Assembly (NCBI RefSeq): GCF_022829445.1
Contig: NZ_JAKSXY010000084.1
Span: forward strand, 62,001-126,000
DNA from: Methylobacterium sp. J-068
Lineage (GTDB): Bacteria; Pseudomonadota; Alphaproteobacteria; Rhizobiales; Beijerinckiaceae
Direction of reading: 5' to 3'
Length of the DNA: 64,000 bases
The translations under genes and the position numbers were made by a program. The first letter of the stretch is position 1. The number at the start of each line of letters is the position of its first letter. Below the pieces are notes generated by a model. That model was given only the letters and a program-made list of their open reading frames with translations, had not been told where the DNA came from and did not search any database. Positions 30,523 through 55,484 of the stretch are shown one piece after another.

Positions 30523-32349
30523 TCACTCGACGGTGACGGATTTCGCCAGATTTCGCGGCTGGTCGACGTCTTTCCCCATGATGGCGGCGGTGTGGTAGGC
30601 GAGGAGCTGGATCGGCATTGCGTAGAGGATCGGCGCCACGGTCGGGTCGATCTCCGGCATCGTCAGGGTCGCCAGGGTCTCGAGCCCGTGCTCGGCCGCG
30701 CCGGCGGCGTCGCCGATGAGGACGATCCGGCCGCCGCGCGCGGCGACCTCCTGCATGTTGGAGACCGTTTTCTCGAACACCGCGTCGTGGGGGGCGATGA
30801 CGATGACCGGCATCGCCTCGTCGATGAGCGCGATCGGCCCGTGCTTGAGCTCGCCGGCCGCGTACCCTTCCGCGTGGATGTAGGAGATCTCCTTCAGCTT
30901 CAGGGCGCCTTCGAGGGCGAGGGGATAGGCCGTGCCGCGGCCGAGATAGAGCACGTCCCGGGCCTTGGCGATCTCCTGCGCGAGGGTCTGGATCTCGCCC
31001 TCCTGCTTGACGGCCCGCGCCATCAGGCCCGGCACGGCGATCAGGGCGTCGACGAGACGGTGCTCTCCGGCGGCATCGAGATGGCCCCGCGCGCGCGCCG
31101 CCGCGATGGCGAGGCAGAGCAGCACCGTGAGCTGGCAGGTGAAGGCCTTGGTGGAGGCGACCCCGATCTCGGGCCCCGCGAAGGTGGGCAGCACCGCGTC
31201 GGATTCCCGCGCCATGGTCGAGGTCGGCACGTTGAGCACGGCGAGGACGTGCTGCCCCTGGGCACGCGCGTAGCGCAGGGAGGCCAGGGTGTCGGCAGTC
31301 TCGCCCGATTGCGAGATGACCAGGGTGGCCTCCCCGGCGGCAAGGGGCGCCTCCCGGTAGCGGAACTCGGAGGCGACATCGACCTCCACCGGAAGCCGGG
31401 CCAGGTGCTCGAACCAATACTTGGCCACGAGCCCGGCATAATAGGCGGTGCCGCAGGCCGTGATGGAGAGGCGCGTCAGGTCCGCGAAGCCGAAGGGCAG
31501 CGCCATGGGCAGCCGCACCCGGCTCGTCGCGAGATCGACGTAGTGGGCGAGCGTGCGCCCCACCACCTCCGGCTGCTCGTGGATCTCCTTGGCCATGAAG
31601 TGGCGGTGATTGCCGCGATCGACCAGGAAGTTGTGGGTGACGATCGTCTGGCGCATCCGCGCGGCGGGCGCTCCGTCCGCTTCGCGAATCTCGGCGCCCT
31701 GGCGTGTCAGCACGGCCCAGTCGCCGTCCTCCAGGTAGGTGATCGAATCGGTCAGCGGCGCCAGGGCCAGGGCATCCGAGCCGAGATAGGTCTCGCCCTC
31801 GCCGAACCCCACCGCGAGCGGCGCGCCGTGCCGGGCGCCGATCAGCAGGTCGGTCTCGCCCGCGAACAGGAAGGCGAGCGCGAAGGCGCCGCGCAGCTGC
31901 GGCAGCGTGGCGGCCACGGCCTCGACCGGATCCATCCCGCATTCCATGTTCCAGCTCACGAGCTGGGCCACCACCTCGGTGTCCGTCTCGGTCTCGAACA
32001 CGATGCCCTCCGCTTGCAGGCGCCGTTTCAGACTCCGAAAATTCTCGATGATGCCGTTGTGGACGACCGCGAGGCGCGTGGTGGCGTGCGGATGGGCGTT
32101 GGTCTCGTTCGGCCGCCCATGCGTCGCCCAGCGGGTGTGACCGATGCCGATGGCGCCCCGCAGGGGCGACTGGACCAATTTCAATTGCAGGTTGACGAGC
32201 TTGCCCTCCGCTCGCCGCCGCTCCAGGCGGCCCGCCTCCAGGGTGGCCAGCCCGGCGGAATCGTAGCCCCGGTATTCCAGGCGGCGCAACGCCTCGACCA
32301 CGGGACCCGCCACCGCCTCACGGCCGACGATACCGACGATTCCGCACAT
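30523..32349 (-). CDS. glmS: GlmS, glutamine:fructose-6-phosphate aminotransferase
   Basis: 608 aa, the usual length. The N-terminal glutaminase domain starts MCGIVGIVG with nucleophile Cys2 after Met removal, and includes HTRWATHGRPNETNAHPH and NGIIENF. Two SIS sugar-isomerase domains follow (SQSGETADTLASLRYA, EIGVASTKAFTCQ), ending in LAKSVTVE. It makes glucosamine-6-phosphate for UDP-GlcNAc. Its position between sugar-nucleotide genes suggests extra supply for an amino-sugar polymer, although it may also be the only housekeeping copy, since glmU is not visible here. AAGGAGG precedes ATG 32349. No glmS ribozyme-like leader is present. Confidence 0.95.
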   Translation of the reverse strand: MCGIVGIVGREAVAGPVVEALRRLEYRGYDSAGLATLEAGRLERRRAEGKLVNLQLKLVQSPLRGAIGIGHTRWATHGRPNETNAHPHATTRLAVVHNGIIENFRSLKRRLQAEGIVFETETDTEVVAQLVSWNMECGMDPVEAVAATLPQLRGAFALAFLFAGETDLLIGARHGAPLAVGFGEGETYLGSDALALAPLTDSITYLEDGDWAVLTRQGAEIREADGAPAARMRQTIVTHNFLVDRGNHRHFMAKEIHEQPEVVGRTLAHYVDLATSRVRLPMALPFGFADLTRLSITACGTAYYAGLVAKYWFEHLARLPVEVDVASEFRYREAPLAAGEATLVISQSGETADTLASLRYARAQGQHVLAVLNVPTSTMARESDAVLPTFAGPEIGVASTKAFTCQLTVLLCLAIAAARARGHLDAAGEHRLVDALIAVPGLMARAVKQEGEIQTLAQEIAKARDVLYLGRGTAYPLALEGALKLKEISYIHAEGYAAGELKHGPIALIDEAMPVIVIAPHDAVFEKTVSNMQEVAARGGRIVLIGDAAGAAEHGLETLATLTMPEIDPTVAPILYAMPIQLLAYHTAAIMGKDVDQPRNLAKSVTVE

Positions 32350-32367
32350 GGGGACCTCCTTCGGGGC

Positions 32368-32412
32368 ACGATTTGCAAGGGGGACGGCTTGCAGGGGGAC
32401 GATTTGCTTTGG
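32368..32412 (+). repeat. Short imperfect tandem repeat between glmS and the SDR gene
   Basis: Three roughly 15-bp units of the type ACGATTTGCAAGGGGG, ACGGCTTGCAGGGGG and ACGATTTGCTTTGG in the 83-bp gap before glmS. It could be a small slipped duplication or a repeated protein-binding site. Confidence 0.5.
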
Positions 32413-32432
32413 ACGAGGCGCGCGTTGCGCGG

Positions 32433-33344
32433 TCAGGCGGCGCGCGCCGGGGCCGTGAGCATTCCGGCGGCCGCCCGGCGCAGGTCGCGCAAGGGCGGCT
32501 GCGCGCCGAGGGTCGCGAGGACGATCGAGGACCCGACGATGATCCGGCGCTCGCCGCCGCGTAGGCGTGCCGGATCGCGCGTGACGGTGATCGGCTTGCC
32601 GGAGGCGGCGATCATGCTGTCCAGGAGATCGCGCAGGCGGGTCGGCACCCCGGTGCAGAGGTTCACCACCCCGCGCGCCTTCGGATTGCCGGCGAGTTCG
32701 GCGAGCGCCCAGGCGAGATCGTCGACGTGGAGCATGTCGCGCCAGACCTCGACGTCGCCGGTGGCCAGGGCCCCGCCCGCCGGACCGATCCCGTCGATCT
32801 GCGCCGCGAAGTCGCCGAGCGCGAGGTGGCGCGGCAGCCCCGGCCCGATCGGGTTGAAGATCCGGGCCACGAGCACGCGCAGATCGGTCTCGGAACCGAA
32901 GGCCAGGGCGGCCCGCGTCTGGGCGAGCTTGCTCTGGCCGTAGGGGGTTCGCGGCGCGCAGGGTGCATCCTCCCGGACCGGGACGCCGTCGATCACCGCC
33001 TCGCCGTACTCGGCCGCGCTGCCGGCCAGGATCAGGGCGGGGCGCTGGCCCGTCCGGCGCAGAGCGCCGAAGAGATCCCGCGCCAGGTCGACGTTGACGG
33101 CCTGGAGCGTCTCGGGGGAGCCCTGGACGGTGCCCGCGAGGTGGAACACCACCTCGGGCCGGACCTGATCGAGGACGCTCTCCCACTCCGCGACGCCCCA
33201 GGGGCCGGGCGCCACATTCCAGTGTCCGGCCCGCTCCGACGGGCGCGTGCCGATCGTGGCGACGGGCAGGCCGCGCCCGTCGAGATGCGCGGTCAGGGCC
33301 CGCCCGATGAAGCCCCCTGCCCCGCTGACCAGGATGCCGGGCAT
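32433..33344 (-). CDS. Sugar-nucleotide SDR (epimerase/reductase)
   Basis: 303 aa extended short-chain dehydrogenase with NAD(P) motif GAGGFIG (8-14), FHLAGTV, and the catalytic pair Tyr135/Lys139 in TPYGQSKL. It also has VARIFNPIGPG and DMLHVDDLAWAL. Best general match: GDP-4-dehydro-6-deoxymannose reductase or NDP-sugar 4-epimerase type. It starts 4 bp after the nucleotidyltransferase stop and precedes glmS, so all three are likely cotranscribed for precursor supply. Confidence 0.82.
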   Translation of the reverse strand: MPGILVSGAGGFIGRALTAHLDGRGLPVATIGTRPSERAGHWNVAPGPWGVAEWESVLDQVRPEVVFHLAGTVQGSPETLQAVNVDLARDLFGALRRTGQRPALILAGSAAEYGEAVIDGVPVREDAPCAPRTPYGQSKLAQTRAALAFGSETDLRVLVARIFNPIGPGLPRHLALGDFAAQIDGIGPAGGALATGDVEVWRDMLHVDDLAWALAELAGNPKARGVVNLCTGVPTRLRDLLDSMIAASGKPITVTRDPARLRGGERRIIVGSSIVLATLGAQPPLRDLRRAAAGMLTAPARAA

Positions 33345-34528: not shown

Positions 34529-35851
34529 TCAGCGCGGCGTGGCGTCGGCGCCTCGCAGGGCGGCGTCGCCCGCGCCCTCCCGTCCGCGCTCGCCGGGGCC
34601 CGGTTCGAGCACGACCTTGAGCACGTCGCCCGGTTCGAGCGTGTCGGTCTCGGCCGCCGGCAGGCTCTGCGGGCCGGCCTGCGTGCTCCGGACGATCCGA
34701 TAGGCGAGCGCCGGGTCGCGCGACCAGCCGGCGCTCATCGTCGCGCCCACCACCGAGGCCGTGGCGAGGGCGCGCTCGGCGGCCACGATCTCCGCGTCGA
34801 CGAGGGCCACCTCGCGCTCGGCGGCGAGCCGATGCTGCGCGCTGCCCTGCTCCACCGCCTCGCGGGTCAGGCGCTGGCGCAGCTCCGCCTGGAGGACGCT
34901 GACCTCGTATTCCCGCCGGCGCCCCTCCATGTCGACGAAGTCGCGGCGCACGTCCGCGACGCGCTCGCTCTCCACGACCTGGCGCGAGAACAGCGCCTCC
35001 ATGGTGCGCAGGCGGTCGCCCCGAGCCGCGATCTGGACGCCGTAGGTCTCCAGGCGCTTGCGCAGCAGGTCGACCTCGCTGACGGAGGCCTCGGCCGCCG
35101 CCCTGCGGCCCCCCTCCTCCCCGGCCTGCAGGTTCGTCTCCAGGCGCACCACCTTCGCCTCCGCCGCCACGAGGGCGCTGGCTTCCTCGGCCCCCGCGAG
35201 GGCGCGCAGCCGCTCGAGCGCGCCTCCCGGCGCCTGTCCGGCGCGTCCGGCCGCCAGCGCGGCCCGGCGCGCCAGGGCGCGCTTGAGCCGGGCGCGGGCC
35301 GTCTCCTCCCGCTCGCGCTCGCGCAGGGATTCGACCACGCCCGCGAGGGTGGCCGGGTCCTTGTCGCGGCCGCCGGCGAGGGCGATCGCCTGCAGCACGA
35401 TCATCCCGCCCGTATACGGATAGGCGCCCGGGTTGCGGACGGAGCCGACGACGAAGACGGGCGCGCGCTGGAGCAGCCCCACCGTCACCCCGCCGTGCCG
35501 GCCGAAGGCGGTCTCGAAGACGCCCATCAGATCCGTCCGCAGGGTCTCCAGCGGCTTGCCGGCCGCCGGCACGAAGCCGAAGAACGGCAGCGAGAGCGTC
35601 CCGCCCTGCTCGATCGCGTAATCGCCCGACAGGTCGATCCGCTGGTAGAAGGTCTGGATCACGGCGGCGGCCCCGGCGGCCGGCCCCTTGTCGCCCTGCG
35701 CCGGGTTCGGGAGCTCCATGGTCTCGTAGAAGGTGATCTTGAGCCGGTCGCCGGCGCGAAGGACCGGACCGCCCTCGGCCCGGGCCTCAAGACCCCGGGC
35801 GACCAGACCCGACAGGACGACGAGCAGCGCGGCGGTGCGTGATCTCAGCAT
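34529..35851 (-). CDS. Wza-like polysaccharide export (OPX) protein with long coiled coil
   Basis: 440 aa. A signal peptide (cleavage near ARAEGG, about residue 26) has no lipobox Cys, unlike Wza. The Poly_export domain (about 30-130: LRAGDRLKITFYETME, YAIEQGGTLSLPFFGFV) is followed by one SLBB motif (VFVVGSVRNPGAYPYTGG), then a long Ala/Arg/Glu-rich coiled coil (about 170-375), then a short second SLBB-like piece (LEPGDVLKVVLEPG). OPX proteins help export polymer through the periplasm and outer membrane. It is cotranscribed with the upstream TPR gene (87-bp gap). Confidence 0.83.
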   Translation of the reverse strand: MLRSRTAALLVVLSGLVARGLEARAEGGPVLRAGDRLKITFYETMELPNPAQGDKGPAAGAAAVIQTFYQRIDLSGDYAIEQGGTLSLPFFGFVPAAGKPLETLRTDLMGVFETAFGRHGGVTVGLLQRAPVFVVGSVRNPGAYPYTGGMIVLQAIALAGGRDKDPATLAGVVESLREREREETARARLKRALARRAALAAGRAGQAPGGALERLRALAGAEEASALVAAEAKVVRLETNLQAGEEGGRRAAAEASVSEVDLLRKRLETYGVQIAARGDRLRTMEALFSRQVVESERVADVRRDFVDMEGRRREYEVSVLQAELRQRLTREAVEQGSAQHRLAAEREVALVDAEIVAAERALATASVVGATMSAGWSRDPALAYRIVRSTQAGPQSLPAAETDTLEPGDVLKVVLEPGPGERGREGAGDAALRGADATPR

Positions 35852-35938
35852 GACCTTGTCTCCTGGGGATGGTTGAGCCGGTGGCCTCTGCGGCGCGGAT
35901 GAGGGGGCGGGCCGGCGCGGGCCGGCATCGGCGGCGGG

Positions 35939-37390
35939 TCACTGCGTCCTCCGGGCGCCCGGCTCCACGTCGGCCTGTGCTCGGGTCTGCACTCGGGCCT
36001 GCGCCGCGATCGGTGCCGGGCTCTGGGTCCGCCGCCGCAACGCGTTCAGGCCGAGGTGCTGTTCGGCCGCGTTGCCGAGGCGCTGCGCCAGCCGGAGCTG
36101 ATTCGGGATGAGGTCGGTGGGCAGCCGGTCCCGGCGCAGGAGGTCGCCCAGCGTCGCCAGGGCCGCCTCGTCCCCGGCGATGAGGCCGAGAAGCGCGAGC
36201 CATTCGGGCCGCGCCGCTCCTGCGAGCCGAGCCGGATCGACGCCCTCGATGAGGTGCCGGGCCAGCAGAGGGTTGCCCTCGTGCAGGGCAAGGCGCGCGG
36301 CGAAGAGCGGCTGCCGGCGCAGGGCCTCGAAGGACAGGCGCGGCCGCAGGGGCGCGATCGCATCGAGCCCGTAGCGCAGGGACAGGGCCTCGGCGATCGC
36401 CACATGGGCCTCGAACCATCCGGGCCGGGACAGGATCAGCGACGCCTTGCGCCACAGGGCCAGCGAATCGCCGACCACGTGGGCCGCCGCCACGTAGCCG
36501 GCGACCTCGTCGGAGGAGGGCTCGGTCGCGCCCTGCGCCCAATCGTCGAGGAGCGCGGTGGCGACACGCCGGTTCCCGTCCTCGGCCACCACCCGGGCGA
36601 GGTAGAAGCGCGTTCCGGGGCTGCGCGCGATGACCTGCGCGCCGAGGGCCAACGCGGAGGCCGGGTCGCCGCGGGCGGCCATGCGGCGCACCACGTGAAC
36701 GCCGAGCCAGGGCTTGTCGCGCCAGACCTCGATCCAGCGGCCCGCCCGCTCGGCGGCCTCCGTCCCCTGGCCGGTCGCGAGGAGGAGGTCGTAGAGCACG
36801 ATCCGGCCGGTCTCGTGCCCGGCGGGCATCAGCGCATCGGCGCGGCGCAGGGCGGCGAGGGCGGCGTCACGCTCCCCGGCCCAGGACAGCAGGATGCCGA
36901 GGCGCTCGATGTCCCCGGGGCGCAGCATCGCCTCGTCCCCGATCGATTTGAGGAGTTCGCGCTCCTCGTCGATGCGTTCCTGGGTCCGGTAGAGGTCGAG
37001 GAGCGCCGACAATCGTGCGCGGGTCGGCTCGATCGCCACGAGGATTTGCAGGGTGCGGGTGGCCCCCGGCCGGTCGTCCGAGGCCTGGTAGAGGCCGGCG
37101 AGCCAGTCGAGCGCCTGAACGTCGCCGGGCCGCTCCAGGAGGTAGCGCTCCAGCAGGTCCTCGGCGAGCACCCGGTTGCCGGTGGATTCGAGGGCCCGGG
37201 CCGCGGCGGCCAGGAAGGCGGGGTCGCGCCGGCCGAGCGCCAGCAGCCGCGCCAATTCGCTCGCCGCCTCGCTGCTGCGCCCGTCCCGCGCCAGCATCGC
37301 GAGCTGCTCCTCCGAGCCGGGCGAGAGGGCGTAGCCGGTCGCGGCGGCCGCGAATGCCCAGAGCGCCAGGAAGCGCCAGTCGGTCTTCAT
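35939..37390 (-). CDS. Membrane-anchored TPR protein, PelB-like TPR portion
   Basis: 483 aa from ATG 37390, which puts a membrane anchor at residues 7-22 (FLALWAFAAAATGYAL). The rest is a superhelix of TPR-like repeats (AARALESTGNRVLAEDLLERYLLERPGDVQ; repeats continue to about 430), ending in a Gln/Ala-rich tail. Pseudomonas PelB has a TPR region of this type followed by a 16-strand outer-membrane barrel; the barrel is absent here. Divergent from the RTX deacetylase and cotranscribed with the OPX gene, it may guide polymer and the deacetylase in the periplasm. The PelB relation is an inference. Confidence 0.68.
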   Translation of the reverse strand: MKTDWRFLALWAFAAAATGYALSPGSEEQLAMLARDGRSSEAASELARLLALGRRDPAFLAAAARALESTGNRVLAEDLLERYLLERPGDVQALDWLAGLYQASDDRPGATRTLQILVAIEPTRARLSALLDLYRTQERIDEERELLKSIGDEAMLRPGDIERLGILLSWAGERDAALAALRRADALMPAGHETGRIVLYDLLLATGQGTEAAERAGRWIEVWRDKPWLGVHVVRRMAARGDPASALALGAQVIARSPGTRFYLARVVAEDGNRRVATALLDDWAQGATEPSSDEVAGYVAAAHVVGDSLALWRKASLILSRPGWFEAHVAIAEALSLRYGLDAIAPLRPRLSFEALRRQPLFAARLALHEGNPLLARHLIEGVDPARLAGAARPEWLALLGLIAGDEAALATLGDLLRRDRLPTDLIPNQLRLAQRLGNAAEQHLGLNALRRRTQSPAPIAAQARVQTRAQADVEPGARRTQ

Positions 37391-37764: not shown

Positions 37765-40700
37765 ATGATCATCGACGGACTTCTCGACGATTGGAGCGAA
37801 GCGGACCGGCTCGACTCGTCCCAGACGGGCATTCCGGGCTGGCAGGTCTATGGCCGGGTCCAGGACGGGCAGTTCCTCTTCGCCCTGCACGCGCCGACGG
37901 GCATCGCGATCGGCGCGGGGACGACGTTCTGGCTCAACACCGACCGGAACGCCGCCACGGGCTACCAGATCTTCGGCTTCGTCGGCGGGGCCGAGTACAA
38001 CGTGAACGTCTACTCGGACGGCAAGCCCTATCTGTACACCGGCGCGGCCGGGGAGAACTACGTCTCGGGCCCGGTGCAATACGCCTACGGCGCCGACAAC
38101 CAGACCCTCGAGATCGCGGTGCCGACCGCGGCCGTCGGCGCGACGGCGAGCGCCGCCGACGTCCTCATCGACGTGAACAACGCCGTTTTCCTGCCCGGCG
38201 ACTATTCGGGCGGCGGCTACACCGTGGCGCCCGCGCCGGTGACGCAGCCGAGCCCCGTGATCGGCCCCATCACCCTCGACGGCAGCCTTTCGGACTGGAC
38301 GAGCGCCGACCGGATCGACCATCCGGGCGCGCGTCAGGCCGGCTATGAACTCTATGGCCGCTACGTCGGCGACAACTACGTGGTCGCCATCTCGTCCGCC
38401 GTGGCGATCGGCGCCAACACCACGATCTGGCTGAACACCGACCGCGACGCGAAGACCGGCTACCAGATCTTCGGCACGGGCGGCGGCGCCGAGTACAACG
38501 TCAATTTCGGCAATAACGGGATGCCGGCCCTGTACACCGGGGCCTCCGGCCAGACCCTCGTCGGTCAGGTCGCCTACGGCACGTCGAGCGACCATCGGGT
38601 CGTCGAGATCGCGATCCCGAAATCGGCGCTGGCGGGGGCCCCGAGCGCGATCGACATGCTCCTCGACATCAACGACCAGGCCTTCCTGCCGAACGATTAC
38701 GGGTCCTACCGCTATACCATCACGGACCCGGCCACCCTGCCGGCGGTCGCGAATCACGGCGTGAAGGTCGGCATCGTCTTCTCGGAATCGAGTGCCAAGA
38801 CCTATTTCAGCACGACGGCCTATTCACAGCTCTTCATGGCCGCCCAGAACCAGGCCGCCATGGCGGGCGTGCCGTTCGATCTTCTCACCGAGAGCGACCT
38901 GACCGACATCGCCAAGATCTCGCAGTACAAGTCGCTGATCTTTCCCTCGATGAGCGCGGTCGCGCTCGACAAGCTCGGCGCCGTCGAGAACACGCTCACC
39001 GATGCGGTCTACCATTACGGCGTCGGGCTGGTCACGGCCGGCAACTTCCTGACCAACGACGCCACGGGCGCGCTTCTCCCGGGGGACCCCTATTCCCGCA
39101 TGAAGAGCCTGCTCGGGCTGACCCGGGATGACGGCGCGGGGCTCGGCGCCGTCAAGGTCGAGGCCGGGGACATCAGCCATCCGGTGATGGCCGGTTACAC
39201 CGCCGGGGAGGACATCCGCGACTACGCCGCCCTCTCGACCTCCTGGTTCACGCCCGTCGACGGCAGCGCGACGACGCTCGCGACACAGACCACGTCCGGG
39301 GGAACCCACGCGGCGGTCCTGGCGACGCATACGGGGGGCAACAACGTCCATTTCGCCAACGAAAACCTGCTCGGCGACAACAACATGCTCGGCCACGCCC
39401 TCGATTGGTCGGCCGGCCTGTCGAACGGCCCGTCCGTCAGCCTGCAGATGAGCCGGCAATCGGCGCTGTTCGCCTCGCGCACGGACATGGACCAGTCGCA
39501 GGAATCCTTCGACGTCAGCCCGGAAGGTGGCGGACCGGGGATCTACGACAAGCTGCTGCCGATCCTGGCGCAGTGGAAGGCCGACTACAACTTCGTCGGA
39601 TCGTACTACGTCAACATCGGCAACAACCCGCCCGATCAGACCACGGACTGGACCCGGTCCCTGCCCTATTACCGGCAGATGATCGCCATGGGCAACGAGA
39701 TCGGAACGCATTCCTACACCCATCCGGAGGACACGAACGTCCTCACCCCAGCGCAGATCCAGTTCGAGTTCGAGCAGTCGAAACTCGTCCTGCAGGACAA
39801 GCTCGGCATCCCCGTCACGGGGGCGGCGGTTCCCGGCGCGCCGGAGACCCTCGCCACGGCGCGGCTGATCGACCCCTACTTCTCCTACATCAGCGGCGGC
39901 GCCTCCCTGGCCGGGGCGGGCTATCCGGGCGCCATCGGCTACCTGTCGCCGGACGACAAGAATTCCGTCTACATCGCGCCCGACACGTCCTTCGACTTCA
40001 CCCTGGTGGGCTTCCAGGGCAAGACGGCGGCGCAGGCCTCCGCCGCCTGGGCGGCCGAGTGGGCGGCCCTGAAGGCCCATTCCGACCTGCCGGTGGTGGT
40101 CTGGCCCTGGCACGATTACGGACCGACCGCCTGGCAGACCGACGCGCCGGCCCTGTCGCCCTACAACGCCGACATGTTCACGAGCTTCATCCAGACCGCC
40201 TACCAGGCGGGCTCGGAATTCGTGACCCTCGACGACCTCGCCCGGCGCGTCGCCGCCTTCGAGCAATCGACGCTAGATTTCAGCTTCAACGCGACGAACA
40301 ACGTCCTCACCGCCACGGTGGGGTCGGGCGCCGCCGGCAAGTTCGCCCTCGACCTGGAGGGGGGCGCGGCGATCCGCAGCGTCGCCAACTGGTACGCCTA
40401 CGATTCGGATAGCGTCTTCGTCGCCAGGACGGGGGGAACCTACACGATCGACCTCGGCCCGATCCCCGACGACGTGACCCACATCACGGCCCTGCCGTCG
40501 CGCGCCGACCTCGTCTCGGTCACCGGTGACGGGACGAAGCTCGCCTTCTCGGTGGTGGGCGAGGGCAACGTCCTGATCGACCTCGTCGATCCGGCCGGGC
40601 GAACGCCGCAGGTCACCGGCGCCACCGTCAAGAGCCTGAACGGCGACAAGCTCGAACTCGTCCTCACCGGCACCGGCGAGCACGACGTCACCGTGGGATT

Positions 40701-42771
40701 CGCGAACCGCGCGCCCGTCCTCGCCCACGCGATCGCCGACCAGACCACGAACGAGGACGCGCCCTTCGTCTTCGCGGTGCCAGCCGGCTCCTTCACGGAC
40801 GATCCCGGCGACACCCTCGCCTACGCGGCGACGCTGGCGAGCGGCGCCGCGCTGCCGGCCTGGCTCCACTTCGATGCCGCGACGCAGACCTTGTCCGGGA
40901 CGCCCCTGAACGCCGATGTCGGCACGCTCGCGCTCAAGGTCGCCGCGACCGATCCCTCCGGCGCCAGCACGTCCGGCCTCTTCGCGCTGACCGTGATCAA
41001 CACCAACGACGCGCCCACCCTCGCGGTGCCGATCCCCGATGCCACCGCCGCCGAGGGCACGCCCTTCAGCCTGACCGTGGCGGCCAACACCTTCGCGGAT
41101 GTCGATGTCGGGGATACGCTGCGCTACGCGGCGACCCTGGCCGACGGGTCGGCGCTGCCGGCCTGGCTCAGCTTCGATGCGATCGCGGAGCGCTTCTCGG
41201 GCACGCCGCCCGTGGGAGGCCCCGCGTCGCTGTCCCTGAAGGTCACGGCGACGGATAGCGGCGGGCTCACCGCGAGCGATACCTTCGATGTGGCCATCGC
41301 GGCCAGGAACCTCGTCCTCACCGGAACCACCGGCAACGACACCCTCACCGGCGGGCGCGGCAACGACACCCTGAACGGGCTCGCGGGGAACGATGTCCTC
41401 GACGGCGGCCCCGGCGCCGACACCATGACGGGCGGTGCGGGCAACGACACCTACGTGGTCGACAATGTCGGCGACCGGGTCGTCGAGGCCGCGGGCGGCG
41501 GCACGGACCTCGTGCAGACGACGCTCGGCGCGTACACGCTCCCGGTCAATGTCGAGGCGCTCGTCTTCACCGGCACGGGCGACTTCACCGGCACCGGAAA
41601 CAACCTGGCCAATACCATCACGGGGGGCGGCGGCACCGACGTCCTCGACGGCGGCCTCGGCGCCGACACGCTGATCGGGGGTGCGGGCAACGACACCTAC
41701 ATCGTCGACAATGCCGGCGACCGGGTGGTGGAGGCGGCCGGCGGGGGCATCGACACGGTGCGCACCGCCCTCGCCTACGTGCTGCCGGCGGAGGTGGAGA
41801 ACCTGATCCTCACCGGCACCGCGAACCGGCAGGGCACGGGCAACGCCCTCGACAACACGATCACGGGCAATGCGGGCAACAACGTCCTCGACGGGGGCGC
41901 CGGCGCCGATACGCTGATCGGGGGTGCGGGCAACGACACCTACATCGTCGACAATGCCGGCGACCAGGTCATCGAGGCCGCAGGCGAAGGCACCGACGGG
42001 GTGCGGACGAGCCTCTCCGCCTACACCCTGACGCCCAACGTCGAGACCCTCGCCTTCACGGGGACCGGCGACTTCCACGGCACCGGCAACGCCCTCGCCA
42101 ACACCATCACGGGCGGGGCCGGCAACGACGTCCTCGACGGAGGCCTCGACAGCCTCGCCGACCGGCTCGTCGGCGGGCTCGGCAACGACACCTACATCGT
42201 GCGGGCGGGAGACATCGTCGTGGAGAGCGCCGGGGGCGGCAACGACGTCGTGATGACGGACCTCGCGGCCTACACCCTGACGGCCAATGTCGAGACCCTG
42301 GTCTTCACCGGCACGGGAGCGTTCACCGGCACGGGCAACGCCCTCGACAACGTCATCGTCGGCGGAGGCGGCGACGACGCCCTGCTGGGCAATGCCGGCA
42401 ACGACCGCCTGGAGGGCGGTGCCGGGCACGACACCCTGACGGGCGGCGCGGGCGCCGACATCTTCATCTTCGACGCACCGAGCGGCACCAGCGCCGACCG
42501 GGTGATGGATTTCCGCGTGCTCCAGGGCGACAAGCTCGCCGTCCACGGCTCGGATTACGGGTTGGGGACCGGCCTGCTCCCCGCCGATTATTTCGAGACG
42601 GTCTCCACGCCCGGCGGTCTCGCCACGAAGGCGCATGCGGAGTTCCTGTTCAACAGCGCGTCCCAGACCCTGCTCTGGGACCCGGACGGGTCCGGCGCGG
42701 CGGCCGCCGTCTCGGTGGCGAGCTTCGCCACCAAGGTCGTGCTGCACGAGACGGACTTCGTCATTCTGTAG
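37765..42771 (+). CDS. Giant RTX-type secreted polysaccharide deacetylase (PelA deacetylase-like)
   Basis: 1668 aa; ATG 37765 fixed by GGGAGGA. Domains in order: two related modules starting IDGLLDDWSEADR and LDGSLSDWTSADR (1-158, 166-323; CBM9/DOMON-like); a Rossmann/amidotransferase-like domain (about 332-565); a polysaccharide deacetylase with metal/catalytic Asp574 and Asp576 (TDMDQSQESFD), His649 and His653 (GTHSYTHPE), and His783 (WPWHDYG); two cadherin-like Ig repeats (from about 982 and 1082); hemolysin-type GGxGNDTY calcium-binding repeats (about 1191-1562); a serralysin-like C-terminal secretion domain. It has no signal peptide, so export should be by a type I system, which is not encoded here. 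Central layout matches PelA after its hydrolase domain. Next to pelDEFG. Confidence 0.85.
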   Translation: MIIDGLLDDWSEADRLDSSQTGIPGWQVYGRVQDGQFLFALHAPTGIAIGAGTTFWLNTDRNAATGYQIFGFVGGAEYNVNVYSDGKPYLYTGAAGENYVSGPVQYAYGADNQTLEIAVPTAAVGATASAADVLIDVNNAVFLPGDYSGGGYTVAPAPVTQPSPVIGPITLDGSLSDWTSADRIDHPGARQAGYELYGRYVGDNYVVAISSAVAIGANTTIWLNTDRDAKTGYQIFGTGGGAEYNVNFGNNGMPALYTGASGQTLVGQVAYGTSSDHRVVEIAIPKSALAGAPSAIDMLLDINDQAFLPNDYGSYRYTITDPATLPAVANHGVKVGIVFSESSAKTYFSTTAYSQLFMAAQNQAAMAGVPFDLLTESDLTDIAKISQYKSLIFPSMSAVALDKLGAVENTLTDAVYHYGVGLVTAGNFLTNDATGALLPGDPYSRMKSLLGLTRDDGAGLGAVKVEAGDISHPVMAGYTAGEDIRDYAALSTSWFTPVDGSATTLATQTTSGGTHAAVLATHTGGNNVHFANENLLGDNNMLGHALDWSAGLSNGPSVSLQMSRQSALFASRTDMDQSQESFDVSPEGGGPGIYDKLLPILAQWKADYNFVGSYYVNIGNNPPDQTTDWTRSLPYYRQMIAMGNEIGTHSYTHPEDTNVLTPAQIQFEFEQSKLVLQDKLGIPVTGAAVPGAPETLATARLIDPYFSYISGGASLAGAGYPGAIGYLSPDDKNSVYIAPDTSFDFTLVGFQGKTAAQASAAWAAEWAALKAHSDLPVVVWPWHDYGPTAWQTDAPALSPYNADMFTSFIQTAYQAGSEFVTLDDLARRVAAFEQSTLDFSFNATNNVLTATVGSGAAGKFALDLEGGAAIRSVANWYAYDSDSVFVARTGGTYTIDLGPIPDDVTHITALPSRADLVSVTGDGTKLAFSVVGEGNVLIDLVDPAGRTPQVTGATVKSLNGDKLELVLTGTGEHDVTVGFANRAPVLAHAIADQTTNEDAPFVFAVPAGSFTDDPGDTLAYAATLASGAALPAWLHFDAATQTLSGTPLNADVGTLALKVAATDPSGASTSGLFALTVINTNDAPTLAVPIPDATAAEGTPFSLTVAANTFADVDVGDTLRYAATLADGSALPAWLSFDAIAERFSGTPPVGGPASLSLKVTATDSGGLTASDTFDVAIAARNLVLTGTTGNDTLTGGRGNDTLNGLAGNDVLDGGPGADTMTGGAGNDTYVVDNVGDRVVEAAGGGTDLVQTTLGAYTLPVNVEALVFTGTGDFTGTGNNLANTITGGGGTDVLDGGLGADTLIGGAGNDTYIVDNAGDRVVEAAGGGIDTVRTALAYVLPAEVENLILTGTANRQGTGNALDNTITGNAGNNVLDGGAGADTLIGGAGNDTYIVDNAGDQVIEAAGEGTDGVRTSLSAYTLTPNVETLAFTGTGDFHGTGNALANTITGGAGNDVLDGGLDSLADRLVGGLGNDTYIVRAGDIVVESAGGGNDVVMTDLAAYTLTANVETLVFTGTGAFTGTGNALDNVIVGGGGDDALLGNAGNDRLEGGAGHDTLTGGAGADIFIFDAPSGTSADRVMDFRVLQGDKLAVHGSDYGLGTGLLPADYFETVSTPGGLATKAHAEFLFNSASQTLLWDPDGSGAAAAVSVASFATKVVLHETDFVIL
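41425..42450 (+). repeat. Modular RTX repeats in the giant deacetylase gene
   Basis: Four to five copies of a roughly 240-bp module encoding GGAGNDTYIVDN...GDxVxEAxGxG, then NVExLxFTGTGxF, then GTGNxLxNxIxG. Copies at about 41670 and 41920 share long identical runs at DNA level, so copy number may vary between strains. Confidence 0.8.
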
Positions 42772-43185: not shown

Positions 43186-43965
43186 ATGTCACTCGTCGCA
43201 ATGGAGTCGAGCCTTTCGGCGACGGAGAGCGACCCATCCACCGTGGTCATTGTCGACCCGCGCGTCTTGTTCCGGGAGAGCCTGATCTTCCAAATTCAGA
43301 AGAACGGCGGCGCTCCGAACGTGCTGGGCTTCTGCACCGTCGCACAATGGCAGGCCGTTGCACGGGAGAGAGCGCCCGCATCCGTGATCGTGATCGCCGC
43401 CACCCACCGCAGCATCGCGCAGATGGAGTGCGAGCTGGATCTGCTCGCCGCCGTCAGCCCCGGCGTCCCCGTCGTGCTGCTGTCCGAACTGGAGGATTAC
43501 CATCAGGTCGCCGAAGCGATGCGGCGGGGCCTGAGCGGGTTCATCCCGATGACGAGTTCGGTGAAGGTGGCCCAGAGCGCCATCGCGCTCGTGCTGGCGG
43601 GAGGCTGCTTCATTCCCTCCGGCATCGTCTGCACGCGCGACGCGGCGCCCGCCGCGAAGGGACAGGCGAGCGGATCGGTCCGGCTCACCGAGCGGGAGAC
43701 CGCCGTGCTCGGCGCCTTGCAGATCGGCAAGCCGAACAAGGTGATCGCCTACGAACTCAACATGTGCACCAACACCGTGAAGGTTCACGTGCGCAACATC
43801 ATGAAGAAGCTTCAGGCCAAGAACCGCACCGAACTGGCCTACCTCGTCAACACCAAGGGGGTGGTATCCTGGGGGCCGCGGATCGGCGGCGCCTGGTTCC
43901 ACGCGCTGCCGGCGGTCGATCATGGCGCCGCGATGCAGCCCCTCGCCGCTTCGCCCCTGGCCTGA
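43186..43965 (+). CDS. LuxR/NarL-type regulator with degenerate receiver
   Basis: 259 aa. The N-terminal half resembles a response-regulator receiver (VVIVDPRVLFRESLIFQI) but has VDPR in place of the acidic pair and no phospho-acceptor Asp on strand 3 (SVIVIAATHRS), so it is probably not phosphorylated. The C-terminal LuxR HTH is complete: LTERETAVLGALQIGKPNKV, then NTVKVHVRNIMKKLQAKNRTELAYL. CsgD and VpsT, biofilm regulators with similar degenerate receivers, are comparable, but the VpsT c-di-GMP motif W[FLM][TS]R is not seen. It is placed between the deacetylase and the pel operon and is probably their activator. Confidence 0.85.
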   Translation: MSLVAMESSLSATESDPSTVVIVDPRVLFRESLIFQIQKNGGAPNVLGFCTVAQWQAVARERAPASVIVIAATHRSIAQMECELDLLAAVSPGVPVVLLSELEDYHQVAEAMRRGLSGFIPMTSSVKVAQSAIALVLAGGCFIPSGIVCTRDAAPAAKGQASGSVRLTERETAVLGALQIGKPNKVIAYELNMCTNTVKVHVRNIMKKLQAKNRTELAYLVNTKGVVSWGPRIGGAWFHALPAVDHGAAMQPLAASPLA

Positions 43966-44273: not shown

Positions 44274-45239
44274 GTGAGGGCAGCTTCGGGGCAGGCGTTG
44301 GGAACGGCGGGCTCCGAGCAGTCCGCCCTCCTGCTGGGCTGGCGCCGCTACGTTCCGGAGGCGATCGGGCTCGTCCTCTTCCTGGTCCTCGTGGATCATC
44401 TCTATTTCGACGGCACCCGCTTCGCCTGGATCGCGCCCCGCCCGTTCTGGATTCCCATCATCCTGATCTCGGCGCAGTACGGTCTCGCGGGCGGCGTCTT
44501 CGCCACCCTCGCGTCGACGCTGGCCCTGTACAGTTCCGCGCTGCCGTCGCAGCTCGCGACGCAGGATTACTATGCCTATTCGCGGCTGGTGGTGGCCGAA
44601 CCGACCGCGTGGCTCGCCTGTGCGCTGGTCCTCGGCGGCTTGCGCAGCCTCCACATCTTCCACGCCGCGGAGTTGCGCCAGCAGCGGGACGACGCGCTGC
44701 AGGAGGGCGAGATCCTCGGTCGCGGCCTCTCGGACGCGATGGCGGAGATCGCCCGGCTCGAATTGCGGATCGCGAGCGAGACGCAGACCCTCGGCGCCGT
44801 GGCCCAGGCCTTCGGGCGCCTCGACGCCGGGGACGCGCCTCGGCCGGCCGCGAGCCTCGCCGAACTCGGCCGCCTCCTTATCGGGGCGAGCGCGATCACG
44901 CTCTACGGGCATGGCCCCGAGGGCTTCGCGGCCCTGGCCGTCGCCGGGGACGGCGCATCGCGCGACCACGTCGGCATCCCGCCCCTCGACGACGGCACGG
45001 TGCAGGCCCTGCGCCAGACCCCAGACCTCGTCTGGCGGCGCGACCGCGTGGCCGATGCCGAGCGGATGCCCGCCGGAGCGATCCTCGCCATCGGCATCCC
45101 CGCACCCGACCGCTCCGGCCCGCTCGGCCTCATCCTGGTGGAGCGGCTCCTGCCGAGCCGGACCCTCGCCGCCGCCGCTGCGCAGGCCCGGGACGTGGCG
45201 CGCGGCGTGGCCGGCCTTCTCGGGCGGGTGGAGCGATGA
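44274..45239 (+). CDS. pelD: PelD homologue lacking the GGDEF-like c-di-GMP receptor domain
   Basis: 321 aa. N-terminal membrane helices (YVPEAIGLVLFLVLVDHLYF, FWIPIILISAQYGLAGG, FATLASTLALYSS, WLACALVLGGL), then a coiled linker (LRQQRDDALQEG), then a GAF-type domain (about 165-315, ending ILAIGIPAPD...LGLILVERLLPS). Pseudomonas PelD (about 455 aa) continues into a degenerate GGDEF domain whose RxxD site binds c-di-GMP; here the protein ends right after the GAF part (LLGRVER). The start is GTG 44274 with GGGGGAG upstream. It overlaps pelE by four bases. PelD normally scaffolds PelE, PelF and PelG in the inner membrane. Confidence 0.8.
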   Translation: MRAASGQALGTAGSEQSALLLGWRRYVPEAIGLVLFLVLVDHLYFDGTRFAWIAPRPFWIPIILISAQYGLAGGVFATLASTLALYSSALPSQLATQDYYAYSRLVVAEPTAWLACALVLGGLRSLHIFHAAELRQQRDDALQEGEILGRGLSDAMAEIARLELRIASETQTLGAVAQAFGRLDAGDAPRPAASLAELGRLLIGASAITLYGHGPEGFAALAVAGDGASRDHVGIPPLDDGTVQALRQTPDLVWRRDRVADAERMPAGAILAIGIPAPDRSGPLGLILVERLLPSRTLAAAAAQARDVARGVAGLLGRVER

Positions 45240-46150
45240 TGATCGACGCGGAACCAGGCGGCGTCGCCGCGAGCGCCCGGACCGGCTGGGTCGTCGGCGG
45301 CCTCACGCGGACGCCGCCGATCTGGATCGCGCTCGCCACGGCTCTCGGCGAGGTCGCCCTCGCCCTCGCGCTGGTGAAGGGACTCGCCGGGCCGGCGCCG
45401 GTGCTGGCGGGCCACCTCGCCCTTTGCCTTCTCCTCGGCCTCCGCGCGGCGCAGGACGCGGACGCATCGGCATCCCTCGCCCACCTGACGCTCTGGACCT
45501 TCGTGGCCGGCCCGCTCGGCAGCCTCGTCGCCCTCGGGCTCGCGATCCTCGACGGGGTGGCGGGCAAGCCCGCCCTGGCTCGGGATTTCGGGAGCTGGGT
45601 CGAGGCGGAGGGCGCCCTGGAGCCGACCACCGCCTGCCGTCGCCTGAGCAGCGACCTGCGCGATGGCCGCCTCCGGGTCGGCAATGCCGGCGCGGTGCCG
45701 GCCCTGGCCGATGTCCTCGCGACGGGGCCCAAGGAGGCGAAGTTCGAGGCGCTGGCGATTGTCGGTCGCCGGTTCGATCCCGCCCTCACCCACGTCATCC
45801 GCGCGGCGATCCAGGATGCCGATCCCTCCGTGCGGGTCCTCGCCTCCACGGTGCTCGCCAAGCTCCAGACGCGCTTCACCCGCGACCTCATCGCCCTGGA
45901 GGAGGCCGCCGCGCGATCCCCCGACGACGCGGCGGCCTGGATCGCCCTCGCGCGGGCGCGCCGGACTTACGCCGAATCGGGACTGACCGAACCTCTTCAG
46001 GCCCGCGCGGAACGCGAGGCGGCCCGCCTCGCCGCCGGCCGGGCCGTGGCGGCGGAGCCCCGGAACGCCGCCGCGCAGATCCTGCTCGCGGAGATCGATG
46101 GCGCCGACGGTCGGCCCGCGGATGCGCCTCGACCGGAGACCGGCTCATGA
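45236..46150 (+). CDS. pelE: PelE homologue, inner-membrane TPR protein
   Basis: 304 aa. Two N-terminal membrane hairpins (WIALATALGEVALALALVKG, VLAGHLALCLLLGL, LTLWTFVAGPLGSLVALGLAIL) are followed by a helical repeat region (ALADVLATGPKEAKFEALAIVG...; TPR/HEAT-like with VRVLASTVLAKLQ). Size and topology match PelE (about 329 aa), which binds PelD and helps recruit PelF. ATG ATG at 45236 inside the pelD stop, and its own stop overlaps pelF by four bases. Assigned mainly by position between pelD and pelF. Confidence 0.75.
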   Translation: MMIDAEPGGVAASARTGWVVGGLTRTPPIWIALATALGEVALALALVKGLAGPAPVLAGHLALCLLLGLRAAQDADASASLAHLTLWTFVAGPLGSLVALGLAILDGVAGKPALARDFGSWVEAEGALEPTTACRRLSSDLRDGRLRVGNAGAVPALADVLATGPKEAKFEALAIVGRRFDPALTHVIRAAIQDADPSVRVLASTVLAKLQTRFTRDLIALEEAAARSPDDAAAWIALARARRTYAESGLTEPLQARAEREAARLAAGRAVAAEPRNAAAQILLAEIDGADGRPADAPRPETGS

Positions 46151-47703
46151 CGGCGCGCGGCACGGCAGCACCGTCGGACGTCTGCCTGCTGGTCGAGGGC
46201 GGCTATCCCTATCTTCTCGGGGGCGTCTCGTCCTGGACCGACAGCTACATCCGCAGCTTTCCGCACAAGCGCTTCAGCATCGTGGCCTTCACGGTGTCGA
46301 GCCAGGACCGCACGCCGAAATTCACGCTGCCGCCGAACGTCGACAGCGTCACCGACGTCCTCATCGATGCCTGTCCTCCCGGACGTCTGCCCATTTTACG
46401 CGGGCGCGACCGGGTCGCGCCGATGATCGAGAGTCTGCGCACGGTGCTGACCGAGGGCGACGGGGCGGCCTGGGCCGCCTGCGTCCGCGCCTTCGCGGCC
46501 CGCGGCCTCGGACAGCGGGCGCTGCTCGACTCGCGTGCCGCCTGGACCGCCCTGGAGCGGATCTACGAGGCGATGCTTCCGGGCGCGCCCTTCGTCGATT
46601 TCTTCTGGACCTGGCGCTTCCTGGCCCGCAGCCTCATCGCGGTGGCCACCGCCCCGATCCCGCCGGCTCGGATCTACCACGCGCTCTCGACGGGGTATCC
46701 GGGCCTGTTCGGTGCTCGCGCGCGGATTCTGACCGGCAGGCCCTTCGTCGTGACCGAGCACGGCATCTACACGAACGAGCGCCGGATCGAACTCTCCGTC
46801 GCCGACTGGATCTACGATTCCGGCGCGGGCGGGTTCGACGTGAGCGGCGCCACGCCCGAGTTGCGCCGGGTCTGGCTGAACGCCTTCAACGGCATGGCGC
46901 GGATCAGCTACGATTCCGCGGACCGCATCACGACCCAGTTCCGGACCAACCAGCTCTACCAGATCCAGGACGGCGCCCCGGAGGCGAAGCTCCGCGCCAT
47001 CCCGAACGGCATCCGGCTCGACGAGTTCGCCGCGATTCCTCCGGGGCCGCTGCCGCGCCGCCCCACCGTCCTGCTGGTCGGCCGCGTCGTGCCGATCAAG
47101 GACATCCGCACCTTCATCCAGGCCGCCGGCTTGCTGCGCCGGCAGGTGCCGGAGGTCGATGCGATCATCGTCGGGCCGGAGGACGAGGACCCGGCCTACG
47201 CGGCCGAGTGCCGGGGCCTCGTGCGCCAGCTCGGCCTGCAGGACACGGTCCGCTTCCTCGGCCGGGTCCGGGACGTGCGCGCCTATTTCGGCCAGACCGA
47301 CGTCGTCGCGCTCACCAGCATCAGCGAGGCGCAGCCCCTGGCGATCCTCGAGGCCGGCGCGGCCGGCGTGCCGGCGGTGGCCACCGATGTCGGCTCCTGC
47401 CGCGAGATCCTGGAAGGCCCCGGCGGCCCTGGCTCAGACACCGTCGGCGGCTACGTGGTGCGGGCCTGCGATCCCCAGGCCACCGCCGACGCTCTCGCGC
47501 GAATCCTGCGCGATCCCGCCTTGCGCGACCGCCTGGGGCGGAATCTGCGGGCCCGCATCCATGCCGTGTTCGATCAGGACCGCGTCGTCGGGCTCTACGA
47601 GGCGCTCTACGCCTCCCTGGCCCCGGCGCCCGAACCACCCCAGGGGCGCCCCGACACCGTCGCGGATCCCCCGACACCGTCGAGGGTCCCATGGCCGGCC
47701 TAG
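46147..47703 (+). CDS. pelF: PelF, cytosolic GT4 glycosyltransferase (Pel polymerase)
   Basis: 518 aa, close to Pseudomonas PelF (507). It begins with the PelF-specific segment VCLLVEGGYPYLLGGVSSW, then HALSTGYPGLFGARARILTG, FVVTEHGIYTNERR, RAIPNGIRLDEF and the GT4 donor-site region (VLLVGRVVPIKDIRTFIQAA, then ALTSISEAQPLAILEAGAAG with the EX7E Glu pair). PelF uses UDP-activated N-acetylhexosamine to make the Pel polymer together with PelD, PelE and PelG. It shares 13 bp with pelG. This gene is the most diagnostic evidence that the region is Pel-type. Confidence 0.92.
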   Translation: MTARGTAAPSDVCLLVEGGYPYLLGGVSSWTDSYIRSFPHKRFSIVAFTVSSQDRTPKFTLPPNVDSVTDVLIDACPPGRLPILRGRDRVAPMIESLRTVLTEGDGAAWAACVRAFAARGLGQRALLDSRAAWTALERIYEAMLPGAPFVDFFWTWRFLARSLIAVATAPIPPARIYHALSTGYPGLFGARARILTGRPFVVTEHGIYTNERRIELSVADWIYDSGAGGFDVSGATPELRRVWLNAFNGMARISYDSADRITTQFRTNQLYQIQDGAPEAKLRAIPNGIRLDEFAAIPPGPLPRRPTVLLVGRVVPIKDIRTFIQAAGLLRRQVPEVDAIIVGPEDEDPAYAAECRGLVRQLGLQDTVRFLGRVRDVRAYFGQTDVVALTSISEAQPLAILEAGAAGVPAVATDVGSCREILEGPGGPGSDTVGGYVVRACDPQATADALARILRDPALRDRLGRNLRARIHAVFDQDRVVGLYEALYASLAPAPEPPQGRPDTVADPPTPSRVPWPA

Positions 47704-49091
47704 GCTTCGCGCTGGAGCGCATGACGCAGGGACGCTCGCTGACCAGCACCGCCGGCGCCTACGTCTACGCGGCGCTTCTGGTCGCCGGCCCCTGGATCTT
47801 CACGGTGCTGGCCATCGGCGGCATCGACCTCGCCGCCTGCCCCGGTGGCGACTGCCCCGGCTTGCCCGTCTTCCGGTCGATCATCATCTACAACGCACTG
47901 GTCTCGGCGATCCTGACCGGCCCCATCGCCTTCGTCTGCACCCGCTTCGTCTCGGACCGGATCTGGCTCAAGCGCTACGAGAGCGTCACCTTCGCGTTCG
48001 TGGTCGCCCAATCCGTGTTCGCCGGCACGGCGCTGGCGATCGCGGCACCCTTCTACCTGTTCGCGGCGGATCTGCCCGCCCCCGATGCCCTGGCGGGGTT
48101 GCAGAACCTGATGCTGATGGGGGCGGCCTGGCTCCTCATCCCGTTTCTCGGGGCGATCCGGAGCTACGTCGCCGTGGCCATCGCCTTCGCGGCCGGCGCG
48201 GGCCTCATGGTGGCGCTGATCGCGGTGGCGCCGCGCAGCGATCCCCTGCACCTGCTGACCGCCTTCAACGTCGGCCTGACCGTCATCGACCTGCTCCTCG
48301 CCCGGCGTCTCCTGCGGGAATACGGCATGGCGCTCGTCCCCGACGGCGCTCTGGCCCGCACGCTGCGCACCCACTGGGACCTGCCCTTGATCGGGCTGAC
48401 CTGCGCCCTCGGGCTCTGGGTCGACAAGCTGATCATGTGGTGCGCGGCACCCGTCGGCGTCACCATTGTGGGCGGCGCCTTCCGGACCATGCCGAACTAC
48501 GACACGCCGATGTTCTGGGCGCAGCTGGCCTCGATCCCGATCCTCGCGGTGTTCTTCGTCCACGTGGAGACGAACTTCTTCCGCCTCAGCCGCGCCTTCT
48601 ACGGCAGCCTCGCCAACGGGGTCAGCCGGCGGGACCTGACCCGCATGATGGCGCGGCTGTCGCATTTCGTGATGGCCAAGCTCGTCGGGCTGTTCATCGC
48701 CCTCTCGGCCGTCGCCCTCATCGCGATCCTGATCTCCTTCGTGGTGATCGAGCCCCTCGGCCTGCGGGCGAGCCAGATGGGCATCCTGCGCGCGGCCCTG
48801 GCCGGGATGGTGTTCCAGACCAGCTCCTCGTTCTGCTTCATCTTCCTGCTGTACTTCGACCTGCGCCGGCACGCGCTCGCGGTCTCGGGGACGTACTTCA
48901 TCCTCAACGGCACGCTGACGGCGGCCCTCCTGCCCCTCGGCTTCCCGTATTTCGGCTACGGCAACCTGCTCGCCTCGGCGCTCACCTTCCTGCTCGCGGT
49001 ATTGATCCTCGCCCACGAACTGCCCTGGCTGCATTTCCACGCCTTCGTGACCAACAACACCTCCCTCCGAGCGAGTCCGAGCGATGGATAG
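47691..49091 (+). CDS. pelG: PelG, inner-membrane Pel polysaccharide exporter
   Basis: 466 aa (Pseudomonas PelG 456). About 12 membrane helices of the MOP-like exporter type. The N-terminal GFALERMTQGRSLTSTAGAY and AYAALLVAGPWIFTVLAI segments are typical of PelG, as are RFVSDRIWLKRYESV and KLIMWCAAPVG with MPNYDTPMFWAQL. It works with PelF to move polymer across the inner membrane. ATG 47691 lies inside the end of pelF, and its own end overlaps the hydrolase gene by 8 bp, so the four genes form one tightly coupled unit. Confidence 0.92.
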   Translation: MAGLGFALERMTQGRSLTSTAGAYVYAALLVAGPWIFTVLAIGGIDLAACPGGDCPGLPVFRSIIIYNALVSAILTGPIAFVCTRFVSDRIWLKRYESVTFAFVVAQSVFAGTALAIAAPFYLFAADLPAPDALAGLQNLMLMGAAWLLIPFLGAIRSYVAVAIAFAAGAGLMVALIAVAPRSDPLHLLTAFNVGLTVIDLLLARRLLREYGMALVPDGALARTLRTHWDLPLIGLTCALGLWVDKLIMWCAAPVGVTIVGGAFRTMPNYDTPMFWAQLASIPILAVFFVHVETNFFRLSRAFYGSLANGVSRRDLTRMMARLSHFVMAKLVGLFIALSAVALIAILISFVVIEPLGLRASQMGILRAALAGMVFQTSSSFCFIFLLYFDLRRHALAVSGTYFILNGTLTAALLPLGFPYFGYGNLLASALTFLLAVLILAHELPWLHFHAFVTNNTSLRASPSDG

Positions 49092-54112: not shown

Positions 54113-54151
54113 ATGCCGCTCCACGACCAACCCGAATCGAAGTTACGCCTG

Positions 54152-55435: not shown

Positions 55436-55484
55436 GCCACCGCGCCCCACCCATCGTCGAGGCCAGCGCCGAGAACCACGTCCG

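Follow-up and report, generated by a model that had tools for sequence, protein, structure and literature searches.

In Pseudomonas, PelA works in the periplasm, where deacetylation has been tied to export of the polymer through PelB (PMC12022489). Its deacetylase founded carbohydrate esterase family CE21, and Agd3, a galactosaminogalactan deacetylase of Aspergillus fumigatus, belongs to CE18 (PMC12022489). Gram-positive pel operons with a deacetylase-only PelA, as well as rearranged pelA loci, have been described (PMC7112168, PMC7112194), and PelA_DA of Bacillus cereus, which founded CE26, has been modelled and proposed to deacetylate outside the membrane (PMC13254593). RTX adhesins and Pel are described as separate matrix parts in pseudomonads (PMC7716237). 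The main text of PMC7112168 and PMC7112194 makes no mention of Methylobacterium, RTX or Alphaproteobacteria, and the part of the open-licence PMC literature covered here yielded no description of an RTX-tailed or type I-secreted Pel deacetylase or of a PelA pseudoenzyme. Here we describe a 64,000-nucleotide stretch (the window) of Methylobacterium sp. J-068 (contig NZ_JAKSXY010000084.1, positions 62,001 to 126,000; a 5.1-Mb genome assembled in 128 contigs) that encodes, at 37765..42771 on the + strand, a 1668-aa RTX-tailed deacetylase which we name RTX-DA. We estimate a probability of roughly 0.7 that RTX-DA serves as the deacetylase in a Pel-type galactosaminan system whose PelA is split, with a secreted protein having taken over the function of the deacetylase half; deacetylation has probably been moved outside the cell.

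RTX-DA is a single unbroken open reading frame (ORF) running from an ATG at 37765 to a stop codon that ends at 42771, with a Shine-Dalgarno-like GGAGGA at 37751-37756; a GTG at 37423 was rejected as the start because this strong ribosome site lies directly 5' of the ATG. The parts of the gene are as follows.

37765..38739, + strand: two tandem N-terminal modules, possibly sugar-binding (residues 1-325)
38758..39444, + strand: alpha/beta domain, counterpart of the second domain of PelA (about residues 332-560; model pLDDT 94.4; PelA structure 9cgy aligned from chain residue 279)
39445..40281, + strand: carbohydrate esterase domain (about residues 561-839; PF01522, conservation in 70 rows, fold matches)
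39484, 39490, 39709, 39721 and 40111, + strand: catalytic codons of D574, D576, H649, H653 and H783, respectively
40270..40701, + strand: beta-rich domain, counterpart of the PelA C-terminal beta domain (about residues 836-979; DSSP of the model; 9cgy aligned to chain residue 926)
40711..41349, + strand: two Ig-like He_PIG repeats (PF05345 twice; the first at residues 983-1077, the end of the second approximate)
41350..42768, + strand: RTX repeats and C-terminus ending in DFVIL (PF00353 in seven stretches; 13 GGxGxD motifs)

Pfam matches comprise Polysacc_deac_1 (PF01522) at residues 582-692 (E 1.7e-7; 31.7 bits, cut-off 23.1), two stretches of He_PIG (PF05345; best 983-1077, E 3e-37) and seven of HemolysinCabind (PF00353; E 4.9e-39), and the GGxGxD motifs start between residues 1196 and 1560. 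The N-terminal modules repeat each other in tandem, with 47% identity over 154 residues at E 5e-48; a PDB sequence search with them gave no useful relatives. An earlier account of this DNA, made from its letters and hereafter called the sequence-only reading, had described two N-terminal modules, a deacetylase, Ig-like repeats and RTX repeats, an order borne out by the Pfam matches, the motif count and the self-repeat. The catalytic residues it placed at Asp574, Asp576, His649, His653 and His783 are as stated, and they are conserved among aligned homologues (D574 and D576 in 69 of 70; H649, H653 and H783 in 70 of 70). With PF01522 above its cut-off and the D/D, HxxxH and H motifs, RTX-DA belongs to the CE4-type metal deacetylase superfamily. 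CE21 has an HxDxD motif whose His is proposed to activate the base, whereas RTX-DA reads R-x-D-M-D, and the Arg (R572) is present in 69 of the 70 rows.

The RTX-DA model matches the fold of PelA (9cgy) over all three domains (chain residues 279-926), and it has the three-domain fold of PelA residues 293-937 expected of CE21. Like PelA of Pseudomonas (CE21 with GH166), RTX-DA shows the order alpha/beta, esterase, beta-rich and a D/D/H/H/H active site, with pelF, pelG and a GH166-type enzyme alongside. Unlike PelA, it has an RTX tail, two extra N-terminal modules and no Sec-type signal, the hydrolase lies on a separate gene, and no similarity to CE21 was found in sequence. The sequence-only reading had held that RTX-DA stands in for the second half of PelA and had proposed a structural comparison; the fold match across the three domains, the pel neighbourhood and the failure to find CE21 in the same genome all agree with it. 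Its phrase 'CE18/PelA group' has to be dropped, the PelA deacetylase being CE21 and Agd3 CE18, with no sequence kinship to PelA found.

Among other enzymes, a PDB sequence search with the deacetylase domain returned CE4-type and RTX matches only. Agd3, which is located outside the cell, gave no sequence match with RTX-DA, and its absence from the fold matches listed is uninformative, as is that of 9ZAU (CE26). The top Foldseek match of the RTX-DA core is another sugar N-deacetylase, human heparan sulfate N-deacetylase NDST1; this match is not relied on (E 1.7e-11, but TMq 0.29 and root-mean-square deviation 11.9). The RTX stretches match those of type I-secreted RTX enzymes, namely serralysins and the AlgE mannuronan epimerases, the latter of which also modify an exopolysaccharide outside the cell; their catalytic domains and polymer differ from those of RTX-DA. 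A plasmid-borne CE21 of Azospirillum thermophilum (P0225) resembles RTX-DA in that the pel operon of this alphaproteobacterium has hydrolase and deacetylase as separate genes, but it is a true CE21 (9cgy E 3.1e-64) with a hydrophobic N-terminus. PelA_DA of B. cereus (CE26 with CBM114) is likewise a hydrolase-free deacetylase half in a pel operon with a three-domain layout (PMC13254593), although it comes from a Gram-positive and is anchored by a transmembrane helix where RTX-DA has a type I-type tail. Agd3 (CE18 with CBM87) also combines binding and esterase parts, but is fungal (PMC13254593, PMC12022489).

The strongest of the new findings is that, where RTX-DA stands in a pel setting, CE21 is either not found or, in the 16 rows read, lacks its metal-binding residues. 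Searches with P0225 found no CE21 in the genome of this strain. Of 385 alphaproteobacterial genomes, 21 have PelG (partial in two of them), 18 have CE21 and 2 have RTX-DA (G000 and G140; one 29% fragment excluded), and in 22 genomes picked for carrying RTX-DA, CE21 was found in 8 and not in the other 14. Both metal-binding His are lost in all 16 CE21 rows that share a pel setting with RTX-DA (7 from Methylobacterium, 9 from Rhodobacterales), in contrast to an intact D, D, H, H, H in 32/32 other CE21 rows. In the Methylobacterium rows the base Asp has become Glu (7/7), the two His have become Ser/Ala and Arg, and the acid His is kept in 4/7; in the Rhodobacterales rows the acid His is lost in 9/9 and the base Asp in 8/9, L105 retaining both Asp. 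Twelve of the broken rows were found as neighbours of RTX-DA and four via CE21 searches, and 15 of the 16 share a contig or record with RTX-DA, the two lying on different contigs in G638. Of the 32 intact rows, 20 belong to the class sample, 9 to plasmids (checked for RTX-DA in the plasmid records rather than in whole genomes), 2 to further Rhodobacterales and 1 to Hyphomicrobiaceae. CE21 was present in 19 plasmid records, and its residues were read for 12 of them (all but H32, H36, H39, H41, H45, H46 and H48). The copies L153 and L154 were removed before counting, while the near-identical L123 and L168, from two strains of one species, were kept. A rule set before residues were read, that new Rhodobacterales genomes with a broken CE21 hold RTX-DA and those with an intact one do not, held in 4/4 (G638 and G670 broken with RTX-DA; G687 and G708 intact, RTX-DA not found), with the caveat that the two kinds fall in separate tree groups and that identities to P0225 were known beforehand. 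The replacement is better supported than the sequence-only reading could know; that reading had not noticed that related loci hold CE21 partners with a broken catalytic site.

It might be argued that the CE21 proteins linked to RTX-DA are still active with their unusual residues and that both enzymes share the work, as would fit their retention as long frames, the signal-like N-termini of the two whose starts were inspected, the acid His kept in four Methylobacterium rows and the two Asp of L105. We regard this as very improbable, since both metal-binding His are replaced throughout, the acid His is gone from every Rhodobacterales row and from 3/7 of the Methylobacterium rows, and alanine at the matching D/D/H/H positions leaves PelA without detectable esterase activity (PMC12022489). 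The signal-like N-termini suggest that the broken proteins may have been kept as periplasmic scaffolds. A 606-aa ORF of sphingomonad loci was considered as a hidden CE21 and rejected, as the CE21 hidden Markov model gave no match at E <= 1 in any of these loci or in the window; relatives of this ORF occur at 34 further loci of sphingomonad type, and it weakly matches a TPR protein of Azospirillum.

RTX-DA is genuine and widely distributed, and among proteobacteria it is coupled to Pel. Relatives number 781 proteins at E <= 0.001 (7994 candidates scored); the tails of the best 120 of these are mostly RTX, cadherin-like, Ig-like or DUF4214, and database names among the relatives listed are serralysin, RTX toxin-like and polysaccharide deacetylase family protein. 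Within Methylobacterium, the 7 genomes (of 37) with RTX-DA are also the 7 with PelG (p 9.7e-8, not corrected for kinship), the two lying <=20 kb apart in six of the seven and on different contigs in G015. The sequence-only reading had suggested a search for this layout next to pelF in other genomes, and had missed its wide distribution. Among the best 80 of 187 loci from named genomes, 57 have pelD/E/F/G, GH166 or CE21 matches in their flanks. Matches in G041 (34% over 76 residues), G095 (29%) and G529 were set aside as noise before counts were made. A whole-genome check of 23 RTX-DA genomes (L055 excluded) found PelG in 16/16 proteobacteria. A PelG match is present in 47 loci; in 30 of them, each of sphingomonad type, it starts 1-96 nt past the RTX-DA stop on the same strand, seven lack this adjacency, and in ten the RTX-DA frame was missed by the search pattern. 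Among 65 RTX-DA frames that are complete at the C-terminus, 57 carry two or more RTX-like motifs (of the 80 loci, 11 escaped the pattern, and in 4 the frame was cut by the contig end). The relative in a Hyphomicrobiaceae genome ends in F5/8-type C domains rather than RTX. Second copies of RTX-DA occur at L014 (G030:C45), where no pel query matched within 20 kb flanks, and at L018 (G006:C47).

Several results weigh against the replacement of PelA's deacetylase half by RTX-DA. No match of RTX-DA to 9cgy was found with the single sequence (E <= 10) or with a profile (E <= 1), and hhalign against the CE21 profile gave a probability of 36.8, where the positive controls P0224 and P0225 match 9cgy at E 4.5e-145 and 3.1e-64; sequence and profile comparison do not join RTX-DA to CE21, so the kinship with PelA is one of fold. 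In G174, a full PelG match is accompanied by neither CE21 nor RTX-DA (perhaps a third kind of deacetylase serves there), neither deacetylase was found in G087 and G124, which have partial PelG matches, and G374 has CE21 where no PelG match was found. Intact CE21 coexists with RTX-DA in G140, on different contigs and with one PelG, and in the Hyphomicrobiaceae metagenome-assembled genome G447 (L090, L147), which has two PelG: the RTX-DA relative adjoins one with no CE21 nearby, and the other lies near the intact CE21. On a quick tree of 48 CE21 rows the dead or intact state needs two changes, and starred branches force one; a single origin of the loss is not rejected (p-AU 0.468), and there are just 1-2 independent pairs. 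The association of RTX-DA with broken CE21 is therefore clean, though the events behind it are few. The flanks examined lack pel markers in 23/80 RTX-DA loci, including cyanobacteria and contig ends. The whole-genome check found PelG in 0/7 cyanobacterial RTX-DA genomes, so that a link to Pel does not hold across the whole family. These cyanobacterial relatives (L039, L040, L049, L071, L081, L082 and L086) have 48-52% identity, and in cyanobacteria without PelG the family probably acts on another polymer. Eight of the 65 complete frames have fewer than two RTX-like motifs and other tails, four further frames with a PF01522 deacetylase domain exist in the host genome, and a candidate exporter (below) lies on another contig, unlinked to RTX-DA. 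Activity, substrate and secretion of RTX-DA, as well as the acetylated state of the exported polymer, are inferred.

The four further PF01522 frames and the intact-looking CE21 of G140 also fit a different role, in which RTX-DA chiefly serves as a matrix adhesin or as a late remodeller of a polymer deacetylated inside the cell by another enzyme, adding to the PelA deacetylase rather than replacing it. The sequence-only reading had supposed that the protein may hold the polymer to the cell as well, in the manner of a matrix adhesin such as CdrA, a putative role to which its domain types point. Many adhesins have Ig-like and RTX tails, which speaks for a mainly adhesive or remodelling protein, but this is unlikely in view of the failure to find CE21 in this genome, the broken CE21 in 16/16 rows from RTX-DA loci, records or genomes, and the catalytic residues that RTX-DA keeps in 69-70 of 70 homologues.

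Replacement of PelA's deacetylase half by RTX-DA also accords with the surrounding locus, in which the following genes were recognised.

30523..33186, - strand: ORF with GlmS-like domains (GATase and SIS)
left of RTX-DA, near the Poly_export/SLBB gene and the GlmS-like ORF, - strand: nucleotidyltransferase
34529..35851, - strand: polysaccharide export (Poly_export/SLBB) protein (PF02563, PF10531)
35939..37390, - strand: TPR protein, perhaps the counterpart of the PelB TPR part (PF14559, E 2.7e-6)
43186..43965, + strand: LuxR-type regulator (PF00196, E 2e-18)
44274..45239, + strand: PelD-like protein (so named from its position alone; no match in Pfam)
45239..46150, + strand: PelE-like protein (likewise named from its position; a HEAT_2 match falls under the Pfam cut-off)
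46147..47703, + strand: pelF (DUF3492 and GT4; PF11997, E 5.2e-68)
47691..49091, + strand: pelG (PF16933, E 1.2e-90; start approximate)
49084..50010, + strand: stand-alone PelA-type hydrolase half, GH166-like (PelA hydrolase 5tcb, the best solved relative, E 1e-27; PelA 9cgy, E 6.5e-25; Tat-like N-terminus by eye)
50136..51134, + strand: NAD-dependent sugar epimerase/dehydratase, possibly for precursor supply (PF16363; TIGR04180 390.9 bits, under the cut-off of 475)

With pelF, pelG and a PelA-type hydrolase, this is a Pel biosynthetic locus. As the hydrolase has its own gene, the two halves of PelA lie on two genes here, the second half being the RTX protein; the sequence-only reading had placed RTX-DA correctly in this respect and had overlooked the hydrolase at 49084-50010. 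The TPR and Poly_export/SLBB proteins (34529-37390, - strand) occupy the place of Pseudomonas PelB and PelC; related pairs are found in other Methylobacterium pel loci, and a polysaccharide export gene at a Cereibacter plasmid locus. The LuxR-type regulator, which sits between RTX-DA and the PelD-like gene, has matches near RTX-DA in L013, L015, L029, L030 and L053.

The polymer made by this PelF/PelG-type machine could be a hexosaminan other than Pel, with RTX-DA as its deacetylase. The PelG and PelF of the window are distant from those of G019, G022, G028 and G030 (about 28-32% and 43-44% identity, respectively), though close to those of G006 and G015 (66-72%), and the epimerase/dehydratase of the operon is nearest to LegB, below that model's cut-off. 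We consider this doubtful, as the operon holds a PelA-type hydrolase, and the GlmS-like ORF nearby and the glmS-galE pair that comes after RTX-DA on the Cereibacter plasmid would fit a supply of UDP-GalNAc.

The sequence-only reading had also seen in RTX-DA a type I secretion substrate, and the protein does look like one, with C-terminal RTX repeats and no N-terminal signal by hydropathy scan. Its first 60 residues reach a maximum of 1.57 over a 12-residue window, compared with 2.94 for the Azospirillum CE21, on a crude scale by which the GH166 protein with its Tat-like start reaches just 1.75; among the matches listed, none of 197 Met-starting homologues exceeds a mean of 2.0 over 15 residues in the first 45. 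A strict C-terminal motif (an acidic residue followed by three hydrophobic ones) is found in 86/163 homologues with RTX versus 2/51 others, and the DFVIL end of RTX-DA itself falls outside this form. The genome has a PrtD-type ABC gene (722 bits, cut-off 510; above cut-off in 0/14 control genomes) adjoined by a HlyD-type frame, and this pair is the candidate exporter of RTX-DA. The operon at 53828-60326 was rejected for this role, HlyD_D23, ACR_tran and OEP marking it as an RND efflux pump.

Taken together, homology and gene position suggest that PelF, PelD, PelE and PelG would make an N-acetylgalactosamine polymer and carry it across the inner membrane, that the TPR and export proteins would bring it out, still acetylated, and that the stand-alone GH166 enzyme would trim it. 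RTX-DA, lacking a Sec-type signal, would exit through the PrtD-type type I system coded elsewhere, fold outside on calcium and then grip the polymer, deacetylating it by means of a base (D574), a metal site (D576-H649-H653) and an acid (H783), so that the polymer would become cationic at or beyond the cell surface. On balance we slightly favour a history in which, after the arrival of RTX-DA, the periplasmic PelA deacetylase decayed to a pseudoenzyme in Methylobacterium and Rhodobacterales and disappeared from this genome, the sphingomonads, Devosia, Microvirga and Roseomonas, and neutral Pel came to be exported and made cationic and sticky only outside, only where calcium folds the enzyme. 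If true, this would be a natural system that tests whether deacetylation is required for Pel export, and the catalytically broken PelA remnants would test the role of the PelA scaffold without catalysis. The family also points to a large set of enzymes for making or altering galactosaminan biofilms.
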